The position numbers were made by a program, and so were the translations under genes. From Streptomyces sp. RPA4-2 (GTDB lineage: Bacteria > Actinomycetota > Actinomycetes > Streptomycetales > Streptomycetaceae): a stretch of 64,000 nt of DNA. Every line of letters begins with the position of its first letter. The first letter of the stretch is position 1. The notes beneath the pieces are model-generated. The model was not told the DNA's origin, did not search any database, and saw only the letters and a program-made list of their open reading frames with translations. Below are positions 31,941 through 41,156 of this stretch, in pieces. The stretch is taken from assembly GCF_012273515.2 (NCBI RefSeq), contig NZ_CP050975.2, positions 8,184,001-8,248,000 of the forward strand, written 5' to 3'.

Positions 31941-32255
31941 TCAGTCGTCGTGCTCCGCACCTCCGTCGTGCTGCGTGCCCTCCTCGTGCTGCGTGCCCAC
32001 CTCGTGCTGGTGTGCCGCTACGAGGGCCTCCACCATGTCGACGGCGCTGCCCTCGTGGTCGCTGCCGGCCGTACCGCTGCCCTGCTGGACGTTCGCGGCC
32101 CGGTCCACCTCGAGGATCGAGTCGGCGTGCGAGTTGTCGAGCACGGTGATGAAGCTGTCGCCCGCGGCCGCCGGTGCCGCCGCGGCACCCAGCAGGGCCA
32201 CCGCCAGCAAGGCGGCCGTACGCGGGCGCGGTGACGGGCCGCGCGGCGGTGTCAC
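31941..32255 (-). CDS. Small secreted histidine-rich protein, coupled to the PEP-mutase-family gene
   Basis: A 104-residue protein whose GTG 32255 overlaps the stop codon of the upstream gene (GTGA). Signal peptide at residues 1-31 (TAALLAVALLGAAAAPAAAG). Mature part of about 70 residues starts GDSFITVLDNSHADS and finishes in a Gly/Gln/His/Glu/Asp tail with GTQHEEGTQHDGGAEHDD-type repeats that could bind metal ions. No family recognised. The tight overlap means that it is made with the lyase-family enzyme, although one acts outside and the other inside the cell. Confidence 0.7.
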   Translation of the reverse strand: MTPPRGPSPRPRTAALLAVALLGAAAAPAAAGDSFITVLDNSHADSILEVDRAANVQQGSGTAGSDHEGSAVDMVEALVAAHQHEVGTQHEEGTQHDGGAEHDD

Positions 32256-33115
32256 GCGTTCACGCCCTGGGCCTGCGGCCGCAGACGCGCGATGTTGCGC
32301 TCCAGAAGCTGGGTGGCGGTCGCGACGCCGACACCGTTCGTCGTGTCCACCACCGGGAGCCGGCCGTCCGCCGCCCTGAGGTCGGCGAGCGCGGAGTGCA
32401 TCGCCTGGTGGGCCGCGAACAGACACGGCGTGCTGTAGATGGCGACGTCCACACCGAGCTCGGACAGCTCACCCAGGGAGAGCCGGGGCGACTTGCCGCC
32501 CGCGATCTGGTTGAACAGCAGTGGCTTGTCACCGACCACCTTGCGGATCCGCCGGATCCAATCCACGCTGCGCACCCCGTCGACGAGCACCACGTCCGCG
32601 CCGGTCGCGGCGAGCGTCTCGGCCCGGTGCAGGATGTCGTTCTCGTCGGTCGCGTCCGTGCGGGCCACCACGACCATGTCCTGCCGGGTCGCCAGCACCA
32701 TCTCCAGCTTGGCGAGGTACTCGGCCAGTGGCAGCACCTGCTTGCCGTCGGCGTGCCCGCACCGGCGCGGCCGCTTCTGGTCCTCGAGGATCACCCCCGA
32801 CGCCCCGATCCGCTCCAGTCCCTCGACCACGTGACAGGCGACCTCGGGATCGACGTACCCGTCGTCGATGTCCACCAGCAGATGGTGCCGCGGGAACGCG
32901 CCCCGCAGTCGCTGGACGAACGCCACCATGTCCGGCCACGCGATGAATCCGATGTCCGGCAGCCCGTAGTACGAGGCCGCGAAGCCGAAGCCGGAGACGA
33001 ACATCCCGTCGTAGTGCTCGGCCGCGATCGACGCCGAGTACATGTCGTACACGCCGATCAGCGGGGTGGTCTCCGGCCCGGCGATCTGCTCCCTCAGCTT
33101 CTTCCCGTAAGTCAA
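32252..33115 (-). CDS. Isocitrate lyase / PEP mutase superfamily enzyme
   Basis: A 287-residue TIM-barrel enzyme. TTG 33115 is chosen because GAGGAAGG lies nine bases upstream and the first conserved segment (LREQIAGPETTPLIGVYDM) begins soon after. Metal site motif DIDDGY and the loop EDQKRPRRCGHADGKQ are visible. The Cys in RRCGH (about residue 119) is the general acid of lyase members such as methylisocitrate lyase; PEP mutase and phosphonopyruvate hydrolase have instead EDKxxPKxNS. The enzyme thus more likely cleaves a C-C bond of a 2-hydroxy or 2-oxo diacid, or is like carboxyphosphonoenolpyruvate mutase. It is divergent from the C-P-cleaving oxygenase fusion, which suggests a shared organophosphonate pathway. 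Confidence 0.8.
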   Translation of the reverse strand: MTYGKKLREQIAGPETTPLIGVYDMYSASIAAEHYDGMFVSGFGFAASYYGLPDIGFIAWPDMVAFVQRLRGAFPRHHLLVDIDDGYVDPEVACHVVEGLERIGASGVILEDQKRPRRCGHADGKQVLPLAEYLAKLEMVLATRQDMVVVARTDATDENDILHRAETLAATGADVVLVDGVRSVDWIRRIRKVVGDKPLLFNQIAGGKSPRLSLGELSELGVDVAIYSTPCLFAAHQAMHSALADLRAADGRLPVVDTTNGVGVATATQLLERNIARLRPQAQGVNA

Positions 33116-33416
33116 CGTCCGGTTCCTTCCTCGGGGTTTAACACGGCGGGCGGAAAAGGCCGTTGCGACACGGCAGCCCTTTGCCAAGACAAAAGGATCT
33201 CTATGGCGATACGGAACGCTCTCCTTGGACGGGCTTTGCTCACCCCAACGGCGCAAGCGGTTCACCGGGGAAACGTCACTCGTCGCCCGTCCGGGTCGTC
33301 GGATGCCCTCGCCGTCCCATTCATCCGCGCGCAAGCCGCGCGTCACCCCCCGCTCAACTGCGGCTGGGACATTCACGGCATCGACAAAGTTGGCTATACA
33401 ACTTGGGGAGAGAGTG
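33116..33416. other. Divergent control region of the oxygenase and lyase genes
   Basis: No gene seen. Holds divergent promoters and the palindrome at 33387-33404. Confidence 0.5.
33387..33404. promoter_or_regulatory. Palindrome AAGTTG-N6-CAACTT just before the oxygenase start
   Basis: Perfect 6-bp arms, with TATACA inside and GGGGAG directly after. Probable operator overlapping a -10 region; the GntR-type regulator at 35144-35953 is the obvious candidate. Confidence 0.6.
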
Positions 33417-35099
33417 ATGACCGTGTCACCGTCAGTCAGGCAGCTGTCCGTCGAGGAACCCGCGGTGGAGGACATGCCGCTCATGTGGCTGCGGGACAAC
33501 TGCGCCTGCGCCCTGTGCCGGGACCCGCGCAACGGGCAGAAGCTGTTCCAGATCACCGAGCTGCCCGCGGGCCTCGCGCTCGGCGCCGTCCGGCGGACCG
33601 CCGACGGCGTCGAGGTCGACTGGGCACCCGATGGCCACCGGTCGGAGTACTCCAGGCAGTGGCTCACGGCCAACCGTCCCGGTACGGGCGCCGACGCCGC
33701 CGACAGGCCCGGGGACCGGCGTGGTGAGACGGGCAAGACACTGTGGACCGCCGCCGACCTGGACGGCCGGCTGCCCGAGGCGGACTGGGCGGACTACCTG
33801 GGCGACCCGGTCGTCAAGGCCCGCGTGCTGGACTCGGTCCTCGGGCTCGGCTTCGCCCTGCTGCGCGACGTTCCGTGCCGTACGGGCCAGGTGCTGGAGG
33901 TGGCCGAGACGTTCGGCTACGTCCGCGAGACCAACTACGGGCGGCTGTTCGACGTACGGGTCGAACCGGACCCCAACAACCTGGCCTTCACCGGCGCGCG
34001 CATCACCCCGCACACCGACAACCCGTACCGCGACCCGGTGCCCACCCTCCAACTGCTGCACTGCCTCGCGAACTCGGCGAGCGGCGGCGACTCGGGTCTG
34101 GTGGACGGATTCAAGGCCGCCGCGCTGCTGCGCGCCGAGGACCCTGAGGCCTTCGCGGTGCTGACCCGCACACCCGTGCCGTTCCGCTTCAGCGACGCCC
34201 GCACCGTACTGGAGGCCGAACGGCCGCTGATCGACGTGGACGGCCGCGGCCGGATCCGCGAGGTGCGCTTCAACAACCGCTCGATGTCCACACTCCGGCT
34301 GCCTGCCAACGAACTGGAGGCGTTCTACCGGGCCTGCCGGACGTTCGCCGGGATCACCCTGCGCCCCGAACTCCAGCTGGACTTCAGGCTCTCGCCCGGC
34401 GACTGCCTGGTCTTCGACAACGTCCGGCTGCTGCACGCCCGTACCGCCTTCGAGGAGACCGGCGCCCGCCACCTGCAAGGCGCCTACGCCGACATCGACG
34501 CGCTGGCCGGCACCTTGGCCGTACTGCGCCGCCAACGGGACGCGGCGGGCGCGGAGTTCCTGGACGGACTGTCCGAACTCTTCGAGGGCGAGGGCGCGGG
34601 CGCCTACCTGGGCGAGCCGGTGACGATGGCGCAGCACATGCTGCAGGCCGCGGCGCGAGCCCAGGAGGCGGGGGCGTCCGACGCGCTGGTGGCGGCCGCG
34701 TTGCTGCACGACGTCGGTCACTTCCACGGCCCGCTCACCGGCGAGGACCTGATGGCCGGCACCGACAACCGGCACAGCCACACCGGGGCGGACCGGCTGG
34801 CCGACTGGTTCGGCCCCGAGGTCACCGAGCCGATCCGGCTGCACGTGGCGGCGAAGCGGTACCTGTGCGCGGTCGAGCCCGAGTACTTCGGCCTGCTCAC
34901 CGAGGCCTCCGTCTACACGCTTCAGGTGCAGGGCGGTCCGATGTCCGCGCCCGAGGTCGCCGAGTACGAGGCGAACCCGTACGCGGCGGACGGGGTCGCG
35001 GTGCGCCGCTGGGACGACCAGGGCAAGGACCCCGAGGCGCCGGCCCCGGACTTCGCGCACTTCCGGCCGCTGCTCGCCGCACTGCTGCGGACCGCCTGA
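33417..35099 (+). CDS. Fused 2-oxoglutarate dioxygenase and HD-domain oxygenase, probable organophosphonate-degrading enzyme (TmpA-TmpB / PhnY-PhnZ-like)
   Basis: A 560-residue fusion; ATG 33417 after GGGGAGAG. Residues 1-100: zinc domain of gamma-butyrobetaine hydroxylase type, with Cys29, Cys31, Cys34 (WLRDNCACALC) and His74. Residues 110-360: TauD-like dioxygenase, iron ligands His199, Asp201 (ITPHTDNPY) and His340 (LLHART). Residues about 390-545: HD-domain oxygenase of the PhnZ group. Spacing of its key residues fits PhnZ (Tyr24, Glu27, His34, His58, Asp59, His62, His80, His104, Lys108, Asp161): here Tyr397, Glu400, His407, His431, Asp432, His435, His453, His476, Lys480 and Asp533. So one protein would hydroxylate carbon 1 of an organophosphonate and then cut the C-P bond to give phosphate and an aldehyde-level or acid product. 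TmpA resembles butyrobetaine hydroxylase, so a trimethylaminoethylphosphonate-like substrate is favoured over 2-AEP. Confidence 0.85.
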   Translation: MTVSPSVRQLSVEEPAVEDMPLMWLRDNCACALCRDPRNGQKLFQITELPAGLALGAVRRTADGVEVDWAPDGHRSEYSRQWLTANRPGTGADAADRPGDRRGETGKTLWTAADLDGRLPEADWADYLGDPVVKARVLDSVLGLGFALLRDVPCRTGQVLEVAETFGYVRETNYGRLFDVRVEPDPNNLAFTGARITPHTDNPYRDPVPTLQLLHCLANSASGGDSGLVDGFKAAALLRAEDPEAFAVLTRTPVPFRFSDARTVLEAERPLIDVDGRGRIREVRFNNRSMSTLRLPANELEAFYRACRTFAGITLRPELQLDFRLSPGDCLVFDNVRLLHARTAFEETGARHLQGAYADIDALAGTLAVLRRQRDAAGAEFLDGLSELFEGEGAGAYLGEPVTMAQHMLQAAARAQEAGASDALVAAALLHDVGHFHGPLTGEDLMAGTDNRHSHTGADRLADWFGPEVTEPIRLHVAAKRYLCAVEPEYFGLLTEASVYTLQVQGGPMSAPEVAEYEANPYAADGVAVRRWDDQGKDPEAPAPDFAHFRPLLAALLRTA

Positions 35100-35112
35100 T
35101 CAGGCCGTCCGC
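35087..35112. terminator. Bidirectional terminator between oxygenase and GntR genes
   Basis: GCGGACCGCCTGA pairs with TCAGGCCGTCCGC with one mismatch, straddling the oxygenase stop codon and facing the end of the regulator gene. Confidence 0.6.
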
Positions 35113-35143
35113 AGCCGAACACGCCGGCCGGGCGAGTGCGCGG

Positions 35144-35953
35144 TCAGGTGTCGCCGGCCGGGCGGCGGGCCAGCGAGCCGGAGGCGGCCGAACTGTGGAC
35201 GGTGAAGGCCACGGTGTCCGGCAGGTACCGGTCGTCGGACCATTCGATCGGAGTGCCTGCCGGATCCGTGCTGCACCGCCGCTCGCGCAGCAACGGGTCG
35301 CCGGGCCGGCAGCCGAGCAACCGGGCGTCCTCCGCGTCGGCCGGGCACAGGTCGATGGTGTGCTGGGCGTCCGCGAACAGCACACCCCGTTCTTCCAGGG
35401 CCACGGTGTACGACACGGTGTCCGGTGGCAGCTCGGCGACCAGCTCACCGACGGCCGGCGGGAAGACGGTGCGCTCCACCATCGCGGGGCGGCCCGACAG
35501 CGTACGAAGCCGCCGTACGCGGTGGACCTCGGTTCCCTCGGGCAGACGCAGTTGTACGCACTCGGTCGCGTCGGCGGTCCGGGTCTCCGTGGCGATCATC
35601 AGGCCGCCGGGTTCCTCGCCCATCGAACGTGCCCAGCGGGTGAAGCTGAGCAGTTCGCCGAAGCTCTGCGGGCGGGGCATCCCGATCACGACCCGCCGGG
35701 TACCACGCCGCGAGGCGACCAGACCCTCGGTTCGCAGCAGGGCCATCGCCTGACGGACCGTGCCCCGGGAGACGCCGTACCGTTCGGCGAGCTCGCCCTC
35801 GGCGGGCAGCCGTCCGCCGGAGCCGTATCTGCCCTCGCCGATCTCCCGGCCCAGGTCCGCCGCCACCTTCCGGTACAGCGCCTGGTCCCTGCTTTTCGGT
35901 GTCGCGCTGTTCGGTGTCGCGCGTTTCCCGGTCCCGGCCGCACCGTCCGTCAC
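35144..35953 (-). CDS. GntR-family regulator with UTRA ligand domain
   Basis: A 269-residue HutC/PhnF-type regulator. GTG 35953 follows GGAGAGG. Winged helix at about residues 25-90 (LPAEGELAERYGVSRGTVRQ and MALLRTEGLVASRRG), then a UTRA domain to the end (VHRVRRLRTLSGRPAMVERT, and WSDDRYLPDTVAFTV). PhnF-type regulators control phosphonate genes. It ends convergent with the oxygenase and is the only regulator of the locus, so it likely senses the phosphonate or a product and binds the palindromes at 33387-33404 and 36041-36050. Confidence 0.88.
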   Translation of the reverse strand: MTDGAAGTGKRATPNSATPKSRDQALYRKVAADLGREIGEGRYGSGGRLPAEGELAERYGVSRGTVRQAMALLRTEGLVASRRGTRRVVIGMPRPQSFGELLSFTRWARSMGEEPGGLMIATETRTADATECVQLRLPEGTEVHRVRRLRTLSGRPAMVERTVFPPAVGELVAELPPDTVSYTVALEERGVLFADAQHTIDLCPADAEDARLLGCRPGDPLLRERRCSTDPAGTPIEWSDDRYLPDTVAFTVHSSAASGSLARRPAGDT

Positions 35954-38192: not shown

Positions 38193-40511
38193 TCAGAGAC
38201 CGAGGGTGAACCAGGTCGTCTTGCCCTCGTCGGTGGGCCGTACGCCCCAGTCGTCGGCGAGGGCGCGTACCAGGATCAGGCCCCGGCCCGACTCCGCGTC
38301 CTCGGCCGCCGGGCGCGGCTGGGGAAGTTGCGGGCTGTGGTCGCTGACCTCGACGGTGAGCTCGGTCGCGGTCCGGCACACGTGCAGGCGGATGGGGCCC
38401 AGAGCGTGCTGCACCGCGTTGGTCAGCACCTCGGAGAGCAGTAGCCGGGCGTCGTCCGCCAGGGCGGTGCAGTCCCAGGAGGTGAGGGCCTTGCCGAGAA
38501 AGGCGCGGCCCTCGGGCACGGACTCGGGGACGGCGGGCAGGCCGGTGGTGACAGCGGCCAGTGGTGCGTCGGGCAGCCGGGCCAGCAACAGGGTGACGTC
38601 GTCGTTGTGGCTCTCGGCGTCGGGCAGGAGAGCGGTCAGGACGTGATCGGCCGCCGCCTCCAGGTCGGGGGCGGTGGTGAACAGCCGACTCAGCGTGGTG
38701 GTCAGCTTGGTGAGCTGGTCCTCGATGTCACTGCCGGGAGTTTCGATCAGCCCGTCGGTGTAGAGCATGAGCGTCGCGCCGGGTGGGATGACCACGCTGG
38801 ACTGCTGGTAGAGGACACCGCCGACCCCGAGCGGCGCGTTCACGGGCACCGGGAGCGGGCGGGCGCCGTCGCCGGGGGTGGCGACGAGGGTGGGCAGGTG
38901 ACCGGCCGAGCAGATCGTCACCTCGCCCGCGTCCGAGGCGATCACCAGATAGCAGCAGGTGACGAGCTGGTCCGGCACGTCCAGGTCGGTGACACAGGTG
39001 TCGAGGGCCTGCATGAGCTGACGCGGCTGCATGCCGGTCTTGGCCAGGGCGTGGGCGGCGGAGCGCAACTGTCCCATGACGGCCGCCGCCTCCAGCCCCC
39101 GTCCCATGACGTCGCCGATGAGGACTCCGACCCGGCCGGCCCCCAGGGGGATGAGGTCGAACCAGTCGCCGCCCACGCCCGCCCCCTGGGTCGCGGGCCG
39201 GTAGCGGCTGGCGGTGGAGAGGCCCGGAATGGCCGGAGGGGTGCCCATCAGGCTGCGTTGCAGGGTCAGCGCGATGTGCCGCTGCTGCTCGTAGAGGGCG
39301 GTCAGCTCGGCCTCGGCACGCTTGCGGTCGCTGATGTCCCGTACGATCGCGCACGCGCCGACGACCGTGCCGTCCGCCGCCCGGGTCGGCCACAGCGTGA
39401 TGTCGACGTCCAGCAGGTCACCGGAGCGGGTGAGCCGCAACGTCTCGAAGTGCTCGACCTTCTCCCCGTTGCTCAGCCGCTCCAGGAGGGCGTCGATCTC
39501 GTCCCGGTGCTCGGGCGGAGCGAGCAGGGACACGTGCCGGCCCATCACCTCCGCCGGGAGGTAGCCGTACAGCTGTTGCGCGGCGGCGTTCCAGTACGTG
39601 ATGTCGCCGTCGAGGGTCTTGGCGAGGATCGCGTCCTGGGAGGACTCCACGAGCCCGGCCAGCTCGTTGATGCGTTCTTCGGCGGCTTTGCGGTCGCTGA
39701 CGTCGCGGACGGCGGCGGAGAGGAGGAGGCCGTCGGTGGTTTCGAGGGGGGAGAGGCTGATTTCGACGGGGAATTCGGTGCCGTCTTTGCGGAGGCCGTT
39801 GAGTTCGAGTCCGGCGCCCATGGGGCGTACTTGGCGGTTGTTGGCGTAGCCGTTGCGGTGGTGGGTGTGCTGGGCGTGGAAGCGGCTGGGGACGAGGATT
39901 TCGACGGGGTGGCCGAGGAGTTCTTCGCGTTGGTATCCGAAGAGGGATTCGGTTTGTGCGTTGACGAGTCTGATGGTGCCGGTGTCGTCGACGATGACCA
40001 TGGCGTCGGGTGCGGCTTCCAGGAGTCCTCGGAATCGTTCTTCGGCGGCTTTGCGGTCGCTGACGTCGCGGACGGCGGCGGAGAGGAGGAGGCCGTCGGT
40101 GGTTTCGAGGGGGGAGAGGCTGATTTCGACGGGGAATTCGGTGCCGTCTTTGCGGAGGCCGTTGAGTTCGAGTCCGGCGCCCATGGGGCGTACTTGGCGG
40201 TTGTTGGCGTAGCCGTTGCGGTGGTGGGTGTGCTGGGCGTGGAAGCGGCTGGGGACGAGGATTTCGACGGGGTGGCCGAGGAGTTCTTCGCGTTGGTATC
40301 CGAAGAGGGATTCGGTTTGTGCGTTGACGAGTCTGATGGTGCCGGTGTCGTCGACGATGACCATGGCGTCGGGTGCGGCTTCCAGAAGCCCTCGGAACCG
40401 CTCCTCGGCACCCGCGGGCGCTGCCTCGTCCAGCAGGGCCCCGCACCGGCACGGTTCCTGGAACGCTGCACCGGCGGCCCGAGTTGAATGCGATCCGACG
40501 AAGTCGCCCAT
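38193..40511 (-). CDS. Sensor phosphatase with three PAS domains, SpoIIE domain and HATPase domain
   Basis: A 772-residue protein if it starts at ATG 40511; ATG/GTG further upstream (to 40601) are alternatives. PAS domains at about residues 38-158 and 159-279 are identical in sequence, followed by a third, different PAS at about 285-400 (LVESSQDAILAKTLDGDITYW). Then SpoIIE phosphatase about 415-630 (VGGDWFDLIP; IGDVMGRGLEAA; CSAGHLPTL) and a GHKL ATPase about 650-772 (LLLSEVLTNAVQH; ESGRGLILVRALADDWG). It is a member of the large Streptomyces family that controls anti-sigma antagonists in response to signals bound by PAS domains. The two identical PAS units are the product of a recent tandem duplication. 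Confidence 0.9.
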   Translation of the reverse strand: MGDFVGSHSTRAAGAAFQEPCRCGALLDEAAPAGAEERFRGLLEAAPDAMVIVDDTGTIRLVNAQTESLFGYQREELLGHPVEILVPSRFHAQHTHHRNGYANNRQVRPMGAGLELNGLRKDGTEFPVEISLSPLETTDGLLLSAAVRDVSDRKAAEERFRGLLEAAPDAMVIVDDTGTIRLVNAQTESLFGYQREELLGHPVEILVPSRFHAQHTHHRNGYANNRQVRPMGAGLELNGLRKDGTEFPVEISLSPLETTDGLLLSAAVRDVSDRKAAEERINELAGLVESSQDAILAKTLDGDITYWNAAAQQLYGYLPAEVMGRHVSLLAPPEHRDEIDALLERLSNGEKVEHFETLRLTRSGDLLDVDITLWPTRAADGTVVGACAIVRDISDRKRAEAELTALYEQQRHIALTLQRSLMGTPPAIPGLSTASRYRPATQGAGVGGDWFDLIPLGAGRVGVLIGDVMGRGLEAAAVMGQLRSAAHALAKTGMQPRQLMQALDTCVTDLDVPDQLVTCCYLVIASDAGEVTICSAGHLPTLVATPGDGARPLPVPVNAPLGVGGVLYQQSSVVIPPGATLMLYTDGLIETPGSDIEDQLTKLTTTLSRLFTTAPDLEAAADHVLTALLPDAESHNDDVTLLLARLPDAPLAAVTTGLPAVPESVPEGRAFLGKALTSWDCTALADDARLLLSEVLTNAVQHALGPIRLHVCRTATELTVEVSDHSPQLPQPRPAAEDAESGRGLILVRALADDWGVRPTDEGKTTWFTLGL
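39673..40386. repeat. Near-perfect 363-bp tandem duplication of a PAS domain
   Basis: Positions 39673-40023 and 40036-40386 appear identical over 351 bases, spaced 363 bases (121 codons) apart. Codon choice in the units (GAA, AAA, CGA, AGA) differs from the neighbouring G/C-ending codons, suggesting foreign origin of the original unit. Confidence 0.9.
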
Positions 40512-41156
40512 GTCCGCCCCAGGTGTGCTGTTCGCTCTGAATCGGGCCATCCCAGCGGAATGGGGTGTAGTCCGCCCCGCTATGTCGGCTACTGGCTTCA
40601 CAACGGCCGAATCTGTCCGGCGGCGTTACGTCTGCTGACCGTCTGCCGCCGCAGTGGTCTCGCAGTCGGCGGGGCGGCTGCCGGACCGCGTGTCCGGGCA
40701 CCGCACCACGCGTGACCCGGCCGATGACGCCGAGGACAGGGGCCGGGACCTGGGCCGGGGGAGTGAGTCCGTGCGGGTCCCGCCGCCGGGAGGTGGTGGC
40801 CCGTCGGTCCCGGAGTGGGTGTGTGGTGGACGGGTGTTCGGGGTGTCGCTGAGTTGGCCGTGTGGATGGAGTGGCGGCTGTTACTCACTTTCGGGTGAGG
40901 GGTGGGGTGGCGTGGAGGGTGGCGTTTGGGATGATTCCCTTTATTTCAGGGCGATATGGAGCCAATTTTCTGATATCGGGAGATAGGTGCATATTACAGT
41001 CGAGGGTCATGGTCGTGTTGTCGGTCGGTAATGCGGTGCGGGTGGCGGGCTCGGGTGGCGTGGTGGGGCGCGAGAGTGTGGTTCTCGGCCAGCGGGCCGG
41101 GGCCCAGAATCGCGGATCCTCATGTGTGGTCCGCCCGTTCCCTCTAGGGGGCGTTC
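40512..41156. other. Intergenic region upstream of the lamin-tail protein gene
   Basis: No gene seen. An A/T-rich patch at about 40925-41015, unusual here, probably holds promoters for the repeat protein gene. Confidence 0.45.

Follow-up and report, generated by a model that had tools for sequence, protein, structure and literature searches.

A fused TmpA-TmpB gene of Streptomyces sp. RPA4-2, predicted to degrade a quaternary-amine phosphonate, and the recurrent change of fusion state among its relatives

The 64,000-nt stretch of the Streptomyces sp. RPA4-2 genome analyzed here (contig NZ_CP050975.2, positions 8,184,001 to 8,248,000; hereafter the window, from whose first letter coordinates are counted) encodes a single 560-residue polypeptide in which relatives of the phosphonate-degrading enzymes TmpA and TmpB are joined, and for whose gene we propose the name tmpAB. 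Judged by its sequence features, the protein most likely converts 2-trimethylaminoethylphosphonate (TMAEP) to glycine betaine and phosphate, a reading to which we assign a probability of roughly 0.8. The TmpA half, with Fe(II), 2-oxoglutarate (2OG) and O2, would hydroxylate C1 of TMAEP, and the TmpB half, with a mixed-valent Fe(II)/Fe(III) site and O2, would then break the carbon-phosphorus (C-P) bond to yield phosphate and glycine betaine. The fusion would set the two enzymes at a 1:1 ratio, joined by a short, probably helical junction, and repeated fusion and/or fission would link the fused gene to tmpA-tmpB pairs in which the two genes are adjacent.

Reading frame and domain content of tmpAB

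33417..35099, plus strand: fused TmpA-TmpB gene, proposed name tmpAB (560 residues; from the frame, domain searches and structure matches)
33459..34535, plus strand: TmpA half, putative Fe/2OG-dependent TMAEP 1-hydroxylase
33465..33665, plus strand: GBBH-like N-terminal domain (Pfam PF06155) with zinc motif C29, C31, C34 and H74, the motif identical in 43 of 43 fused entries
34494..34586, plus strand: junction, residues 360-390, predicted as a single helix (AlphaFold2 model, pLDDT of the block 86-93)
34554..35084, plus strand: TmpB half, putative diiron HD oxygenase with YxxE gate and H...HD...H...H...D ligands

The gene is one open reading frame (ORF) with an ATG at 33417 and its only stop at 35099, and a putative ribosome-binding site, GGGGAGAG, was recognized by eye upstream of the ATG. 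Residues are numbered here from this ATG; the ranges returned by the domain and structure searches were numbered from a GTG at 33414 and are one higher. Pfam identified the domains GBBH-like_N, TauD and HD. The NCBIfam model of the TmpA family (NF049936) scored 420.1 bits, above its curated cut-off of 400, and the BBOX model did not reach its own (357.3 against 414.75 bits). Among solved structures, TmpA (6npb, E 5.6e-85) comes closest to the N-terminal 374 residues and TmpB (6npa, E 2.3e-46) to the remainder, and the same two enzymes rank first for their respective halves by fold comparison. These searches agree with the initial annotation of the ORF as a BBOX-type zinc domain, a TauD dioxygenase and an HD oxygenase, and its proposal that both steps of oxidative C-P cleavage reside in one chain is likewise supported by sequence. 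The gene is the sole strong match to the Phn-HD model in the 9.86-Mb genome (206.8 bits, the next match scoring 23.8), which is a single contig rated 100% complete.

Active-site residues

The TmpA half has the iron ligands H199, D201 and H340 (HxD...H) and the phosphonate ligands N188, N287 and R288. Four aromatic residues (Y174, F178, F191 and Y357), identical in all 43 fused entries, stand at what we take to be the positions of the trimethylammonium cage of BBOX, an assignment in agreement with the structure alignments. The phosphonate ligands align with N187, N287 and R288 of TmpA, which hydrogen-bond the phosphonate (PMC9296572; PMC articles are cited throughout for the portions available to us), and BBOX has alanine at the arginine position. 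The YxxE gate of HD oxygenases, its role, and their H...HD...H...H...D ligands are described in PMC8177086. In the TmpB half the gate is present as Y397/E400 and the diiron ligands as H407, H431, D432, H453, H476 and D533. The initial annotation had placed all of these key residues at PhnZ spacing; every residue is indeed present, and the spacing differs in one place, where the interval from the fourth ligand to the fifth is off by one residue, as judged from PhnZ ligand numbers that we presume to be correct and that agree with the alignment.

A total of 27 positions were compared, namely the four zinc-motif residues, the three iron ligands, R351, the three phosphonate ligands, the four cage aromatics, the YxxE gate, the six diiron ligands and four presumed HD substrate positions (again in agreement with the alignments), and all are the same as in the window protein in the 43 fused entries. 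Together with the TmpA score, the invariance of the N/N/R ligands and the cage lends sequence support to the TmpA-type quaternary-amine substrate that the initial annotation had favored. Its use of the zinc domain to argue for such substrates was abandoned, and the zinc motif ruled out as a substrate clue, since crystallized TmpA has A, D and T in place of the three zinc cysteines in the structure-match alignment, and the eight proteobacterial entries have cysteine at these positions in only one, zero and one cases. The 35 separate actinobacterial entries keep most of the checked positions; N188 is replaced by histidine in seven, N287 by aspartate in seven and by serine in three, and the zinc cysteines are absent in two to five. 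Some separate pairs may therefore differ in substrate.

Fused and separate relatives

A protein search with residues 378-560 (targets of ~308-980 residues, E<=1e-10) returned 1258 proteins. Among the best 120 of these, a TauD domain is present throughout and 116 have lengths of 521-581 residues; the source genera include Streptomyces, Kitasatospora, Streptacidiphilus, Planotetraspora and Longispora, and the protein names supplied by the sources, where there are any, describe one half only. Within 392 genomes of the genus, 13 have a match above the cut-off of the Phn-HD model TIGR03276 and 16 have matches above 200 bits, 15 of them with a TmpA partner (checked for matches above about 155 bits), fused in six and separate in nine. 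L016, the sixteenth, had at first been taken for TmpB-type by its score; with 44% identity and no TmpA match, it was set aside.

GTDB species genomes were scanned with an HD alignment that had the window domain at its head, which revealed at least 572 encoding stretches; the best 80 were kept, a set that leans towards the window protein's own kin. These 80 named loci comprise 40 fused genes, 30 pairs of separate genes lying side by side (L083, with its out-of-frame junction, among them), eight loci without a TmpA match and two with TmpA elsewhere. The search for further fused homologues that the initial annotation had suggested recovered the same architecture in half of the loci. All 40 fused loci belong to the Actinomycetota, and the separate ones are divided between Actinomycetota (22) and Pseudomonadota (8). 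The tmpA and tmpB genes of nine separate Streptomyces loci overlap by 4 bp, GTGA or ATGA, with starts placed by a simple gene caller. At class level (394 genomes), 25 genomes had matches at E<=1e-30, and 15 further regions yielded two fused genes (L163, L165), eight separate pairs (L167-L174) and five without a TmpA match. Seven of these TmpA/TmpB-like pairs (L168-L174), all of family f18, group on a long branch of their own; 128-419 nt separate their two matches, and neither a transporter relative nor a GntR relative turned up next to them.

Recurrent change of fusion state

Fusion and/or fission of tmpA and tmpB has recurred. The tree of 87 TmpA+TmpB entries (43 fused, 44 separate; 23 of 110 entries were dropped, 15 without a usable TmpA partner, two short and six identical to another) requires at least eight changes of state, or seven without the frame-broken L083, and its strongly supported branches alone force four, L083 counted. 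Removal of 13 more entries (L083 and 12 that were long-branched or distant) left a 74-entry tree with seven changes, in which placing the fused entries on one side of a branch was rejected (approximately unbiased test, p 0.00013); the TmpA half alone also gave seven changes, with p 0.00014 for a single fused clade. The grouping used as the constraint is fusion state itself, but the test was made after the first tree had been inspected. Fusions are indistinguishable from fissions here because the tree is unrooted. Three fused proteins (L126, P0075 and P0084) have a methionine in the linker that is feasibly a relic of the TmpB start and may also be chance. The first of these, from Actinospica acidithermotolerans, has a frame break within its TmpA half, and L083, from Streptomyces sp. 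P3, has one around the junction; either sequencing error or decay may be the cause in both.

Operator-like palindrome, regulator and transporter

33388..33403, plus strand: operator-like palindrome AGTTGGCTATACAACT (arms AGTTG and CAACT around GCTATA), ending 13 bp before the ATG of tmpAB
35144..35953, minus strand: GntR/UTRA regulator (HutC/PhnF-like), convergent with tmpAB (Pfam GntR and UTRA; start by a simple gene caller)

We propose that the convergent UTRA-type GntR protein would control tmpAB through the palindrome, to which, from their co-occurrence, it may bind. The site is the only exact copy of AGTTGGCTATACAACT in the genome. A looser pattern, AGTTGNNTATACAACT, with up to two mismatches, matched this site exactly and one other genomic site with two mismatches, and its reversed control gave one match per strand at the same tolerance. 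With up to three mismatches allowed, 39 of 48 fused and 26 of 47 separate entries have a site at the start of tmpA, and many also have one ahead of the transporter binding-protein gene; six of the entries repeat a genome that another record already represents. Altogether 106 sites occur in 1.36 Mb of locus sequence, duplicates included, against means of 2.1 for 30 letter-shuffled and 1.1 for 30 arm-shuffled controls (largest single values 23 and 6). A scan of 33000-35300 for sigma-70 promoters and terminators found none.

Relatives of the window regulator are near 37 of the 40 fused and 20 of the 30 separate named loci, and those of the transporter near 23 and 13, respectively, counts that may miss some neighbors because the flanks were at most 6 kb. 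The closest model for the regulator is PhnF (TIGR02325), at 104.1 bits against a cut-off of 156.8. Uptake in the window genome would be by an aminoethylphosphonate-type ABC transporter encoded 6.3 Mb from tmpAB, at 1.88 Mb, which is orthologous to that of the relatives, its binding protein being 79% identical in one comparison and 81% over 347 residues in another. Between this transporter operon and a divergent GntR gene lies the palindrome AACTTGTCTGAACAAGTT (L160, 8740-8757), a possible second operator.

Substrate, alternative explanations and the role of the fusion

Several results weigh against the assignment to TMAEP and against the proposed regulation. The HD half scored below the cut-offs of both the TmpB family (NF049941, 200.3 against 300 bits) and Phn-HD (203.6 bits, or 206.8 in the whole-genome scan, against 214.6), TmpB and PhnZ are not separable by fold for this half, and because both cut-offs were missed its exact substrate is less sure; it is TmpB-like, rather than filed as TmpB. 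With three mismatches tolerated, the palindrome is still missing at tmpA from nine of the 48 fused and 21 of the 47 separate entries, among them S. pseudovenezuelae (L082), the closest relative on the tree. The transporter binding protein and ATPase of one locus are closest to 2-aminoethylphosphonate (2-AEP) models, below every curated cut-off, and the two permeases of that locus fit sulfate or molybdate models better. The transporter of the window genome comes with a GntR of its own, which shares 47% identity with the window regulator, and with a different palindrome, AACTTGTCTGAACAAGTT, and so may escape the window regulator. The natural substrate of the same two-step enzyme might be a different aminoalkylphosphonate, N-methylated or not, such as dimethyl-AEP or, as in the fungal protein PhoF, 2-AEP; this would account for the missed cut-offs of the HD half and for the likeness of the relatives' neighboring binding protein and ATPase to 2-AEP importers, and PhoF accepts AEP and APP (PMC10574752). 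We consider this improbable, given that the TmpA cut-off was passed, that the cage aromatics and the TmpA phosphonate triad are invariant in the fused entries, and that TmpA is described as highly substrate-specific (PMC10574752). That the protein has nothing to do with phosphonates and joins an HD phosphohydrolase to a gamma-butyrobetaine or trimethyllysine hydroxylase is most improbable, as the BBOX cut-off was missed where that of TmpA was reached, the phosphonate ligand R288 is present, and both the YxxE gate of the oxygenases and every diiron ligand are found in the HD half. With genes that overlap by 4 bp in separate relatives a small indel could fuse the frames, and L083, within the fused clade, has an out-of-frame junction; an assembly or frame artefact joining two genes is nevertheless scarcely credible, being already refuted by the recurrence of the same fused frame in 40 of the 80 named loci, and the window gene lies in a complete, single-contig genome.

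We retain conversion of TMAEP by the fused enzyme as the preferred reading. The fusion might work by channeling, such that the 1-hydroxy intermediate passes between the active sites without release, as the junction is short and helical in two models and the repeated changes of fusion state may reflect selection. However, the Tyr-to-Tyr junction distance ranges from 33 to 55 residues in 110 of 121 proteins measured (the other 11 did not fit the pattern used), and such variation argues against one conserved tunnel; the predicted junction helix is 31 residues long in the model of the window protein and 25 in that of Catellatospora, a difference that would rotate the two domains relative to each other. 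The fusion is explained equally well by co-translation and 1:1 stoichiometry, and we regard channeling as unlikely, though some kinetic benefit may attach to the fusion. We also put forward, tentatively and as a possibility with the odds against it, that actinomycetes repeatedly fused TmpA to TmpB for hand-over of the 1-hydroxy intermediate, and that a single substrate-sensing UTRA repressor binding AGTTG-N6-CAACT would govern a TMAEP regulon made up of the fused enzyme plus, in many species, a dedicated ABC importer.

Other features of the window and of related loci

32252..33115, minus strand: isocitrate-lyase/phosphoenolpyruvate (PEP)-mutase superfamily protein with RCGH motif, divergent from tmpAB (Pfam PEP_mutase match; far below NCBIfam cut-offs)
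L046, 7740-8303; L048, 7829-8407; L049, 7758-8318: second-class Phn-HD genes

The divergent gene was considered as a pathway partner because its superfamily includes phosphonate enzymes. It was ruled out by its low scores (61.5 against 319.55 bits for PEP mutase and 49.1 against 374.4 for phosphonopyruvate hydrolase), by its RCGH motif, which is typical of carbon-carbon lyases, and by the absence of such a neighbor from all of the other 109 locus entries tested; it is probably a bystander. A genome scan for PEP mutase gave no match over the cut-off, and production of phosphonates by the strain via this enzyme was rejected.

Streptomyces also has a second class of Phn-HD protein, scoring ~160 bits and 41-44% identical to the window HD half, whose gene directly follows one of 276-284 codons; in L049 the upstream genes resemble, by eye, PhnL and PhnM of a C-P lyase cluster. 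Members of this class (L018-L025) lie in long open frames and were candidates for fusions. Five of these eight loci and one further locus were examined with more flank (L046-L051), and none of the six had a TmpA match, so an open frame alone is misleading in this class. Elsewhere in the window, an exact 300-nt direct repeat (39673-39972 and 40036-40335, 363 nt from start to start) lies inside a minus-strand ORF (38193-40601) for a PAS-domain/SpoIIE-phosphatase-like protein (domains named by eye) and is probably a recent tandem PAS duplication.

Relation to known systems and significance

TmpA and TmpB of Leisingera caerulea (PMC10574752, PMC8177086; 6npb and 6npa) are nearest to the two halves by sequence and first by fold, with the same active-site residues. 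They differ in being two separate proteins, which are fused in the window protein, and in that TmpA lacks the zinc cysteines. The initial annotation held enzymes of this kind to be known only as separate proteins, which overlooks PhoF of Fonsecaea multimorphosa, a PhnY-PhnZ fusion that acts on AEP and APP (PMC10574752). Like the window protein, PhoF unites a 2OG oxygenase and an HD oxygenase in one polypeptide, and it performs both steps; it is fungal and of the PhnY-PhnZ type, in contrast to the bacterial TmpA-TmpB type described here, a comparison made with its published description rather than its sequence. Within the Pfam, NCBIfam and solved-structure sets, the N-terminal half was classed as TmpA/BBOX-like. 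PhnY*/PhnZ of HF130 and PhnY/PhnZ of G. maris carry out the same kind of second step, and PhnZ shares the ligands and the YxxE gate, but these are separate proteins with other substrates (PMC10574752), and the HD half is closer by sequence to TmpB than to PhnZ (164.7 against 97.9 bits). DfmD of dehydrofosmidomycin biosynthesis (9j0j), a BBOX-like 2OG enzyme of Streptomyces, also uses TMAEP (PMC9296572); its reaction is a biosynthetic rearrangement, it is more distant from the TmpA half than is TmpA (E 8.5e-40 against 5.6e-85), and the window genome, by contrast, has no PEP mutase over the cut-off. A search of the open-access literature, whose coverage did not extend to the primary TmpA/TmpB and PhoF papers, found no report of a TmpA-TmpB fusion or of the palindrome.

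With PhoF as precedent, the bare fusion is of less interest than the recurrent switching between fused and separate states and the palindrome and its regulator. Our findings suggest that soil actinomycetes carry a compact route for mineralizing a quaternary-amine phosphonate. As lineages with and without the fusion occur on the same tree, its benefit, whether in stoichiometry or hand-off, is directly testable, and the palindrome common to the enzyme gene and, in relatives, the transporter predicts a regulon through which the natural inducer could be sought.
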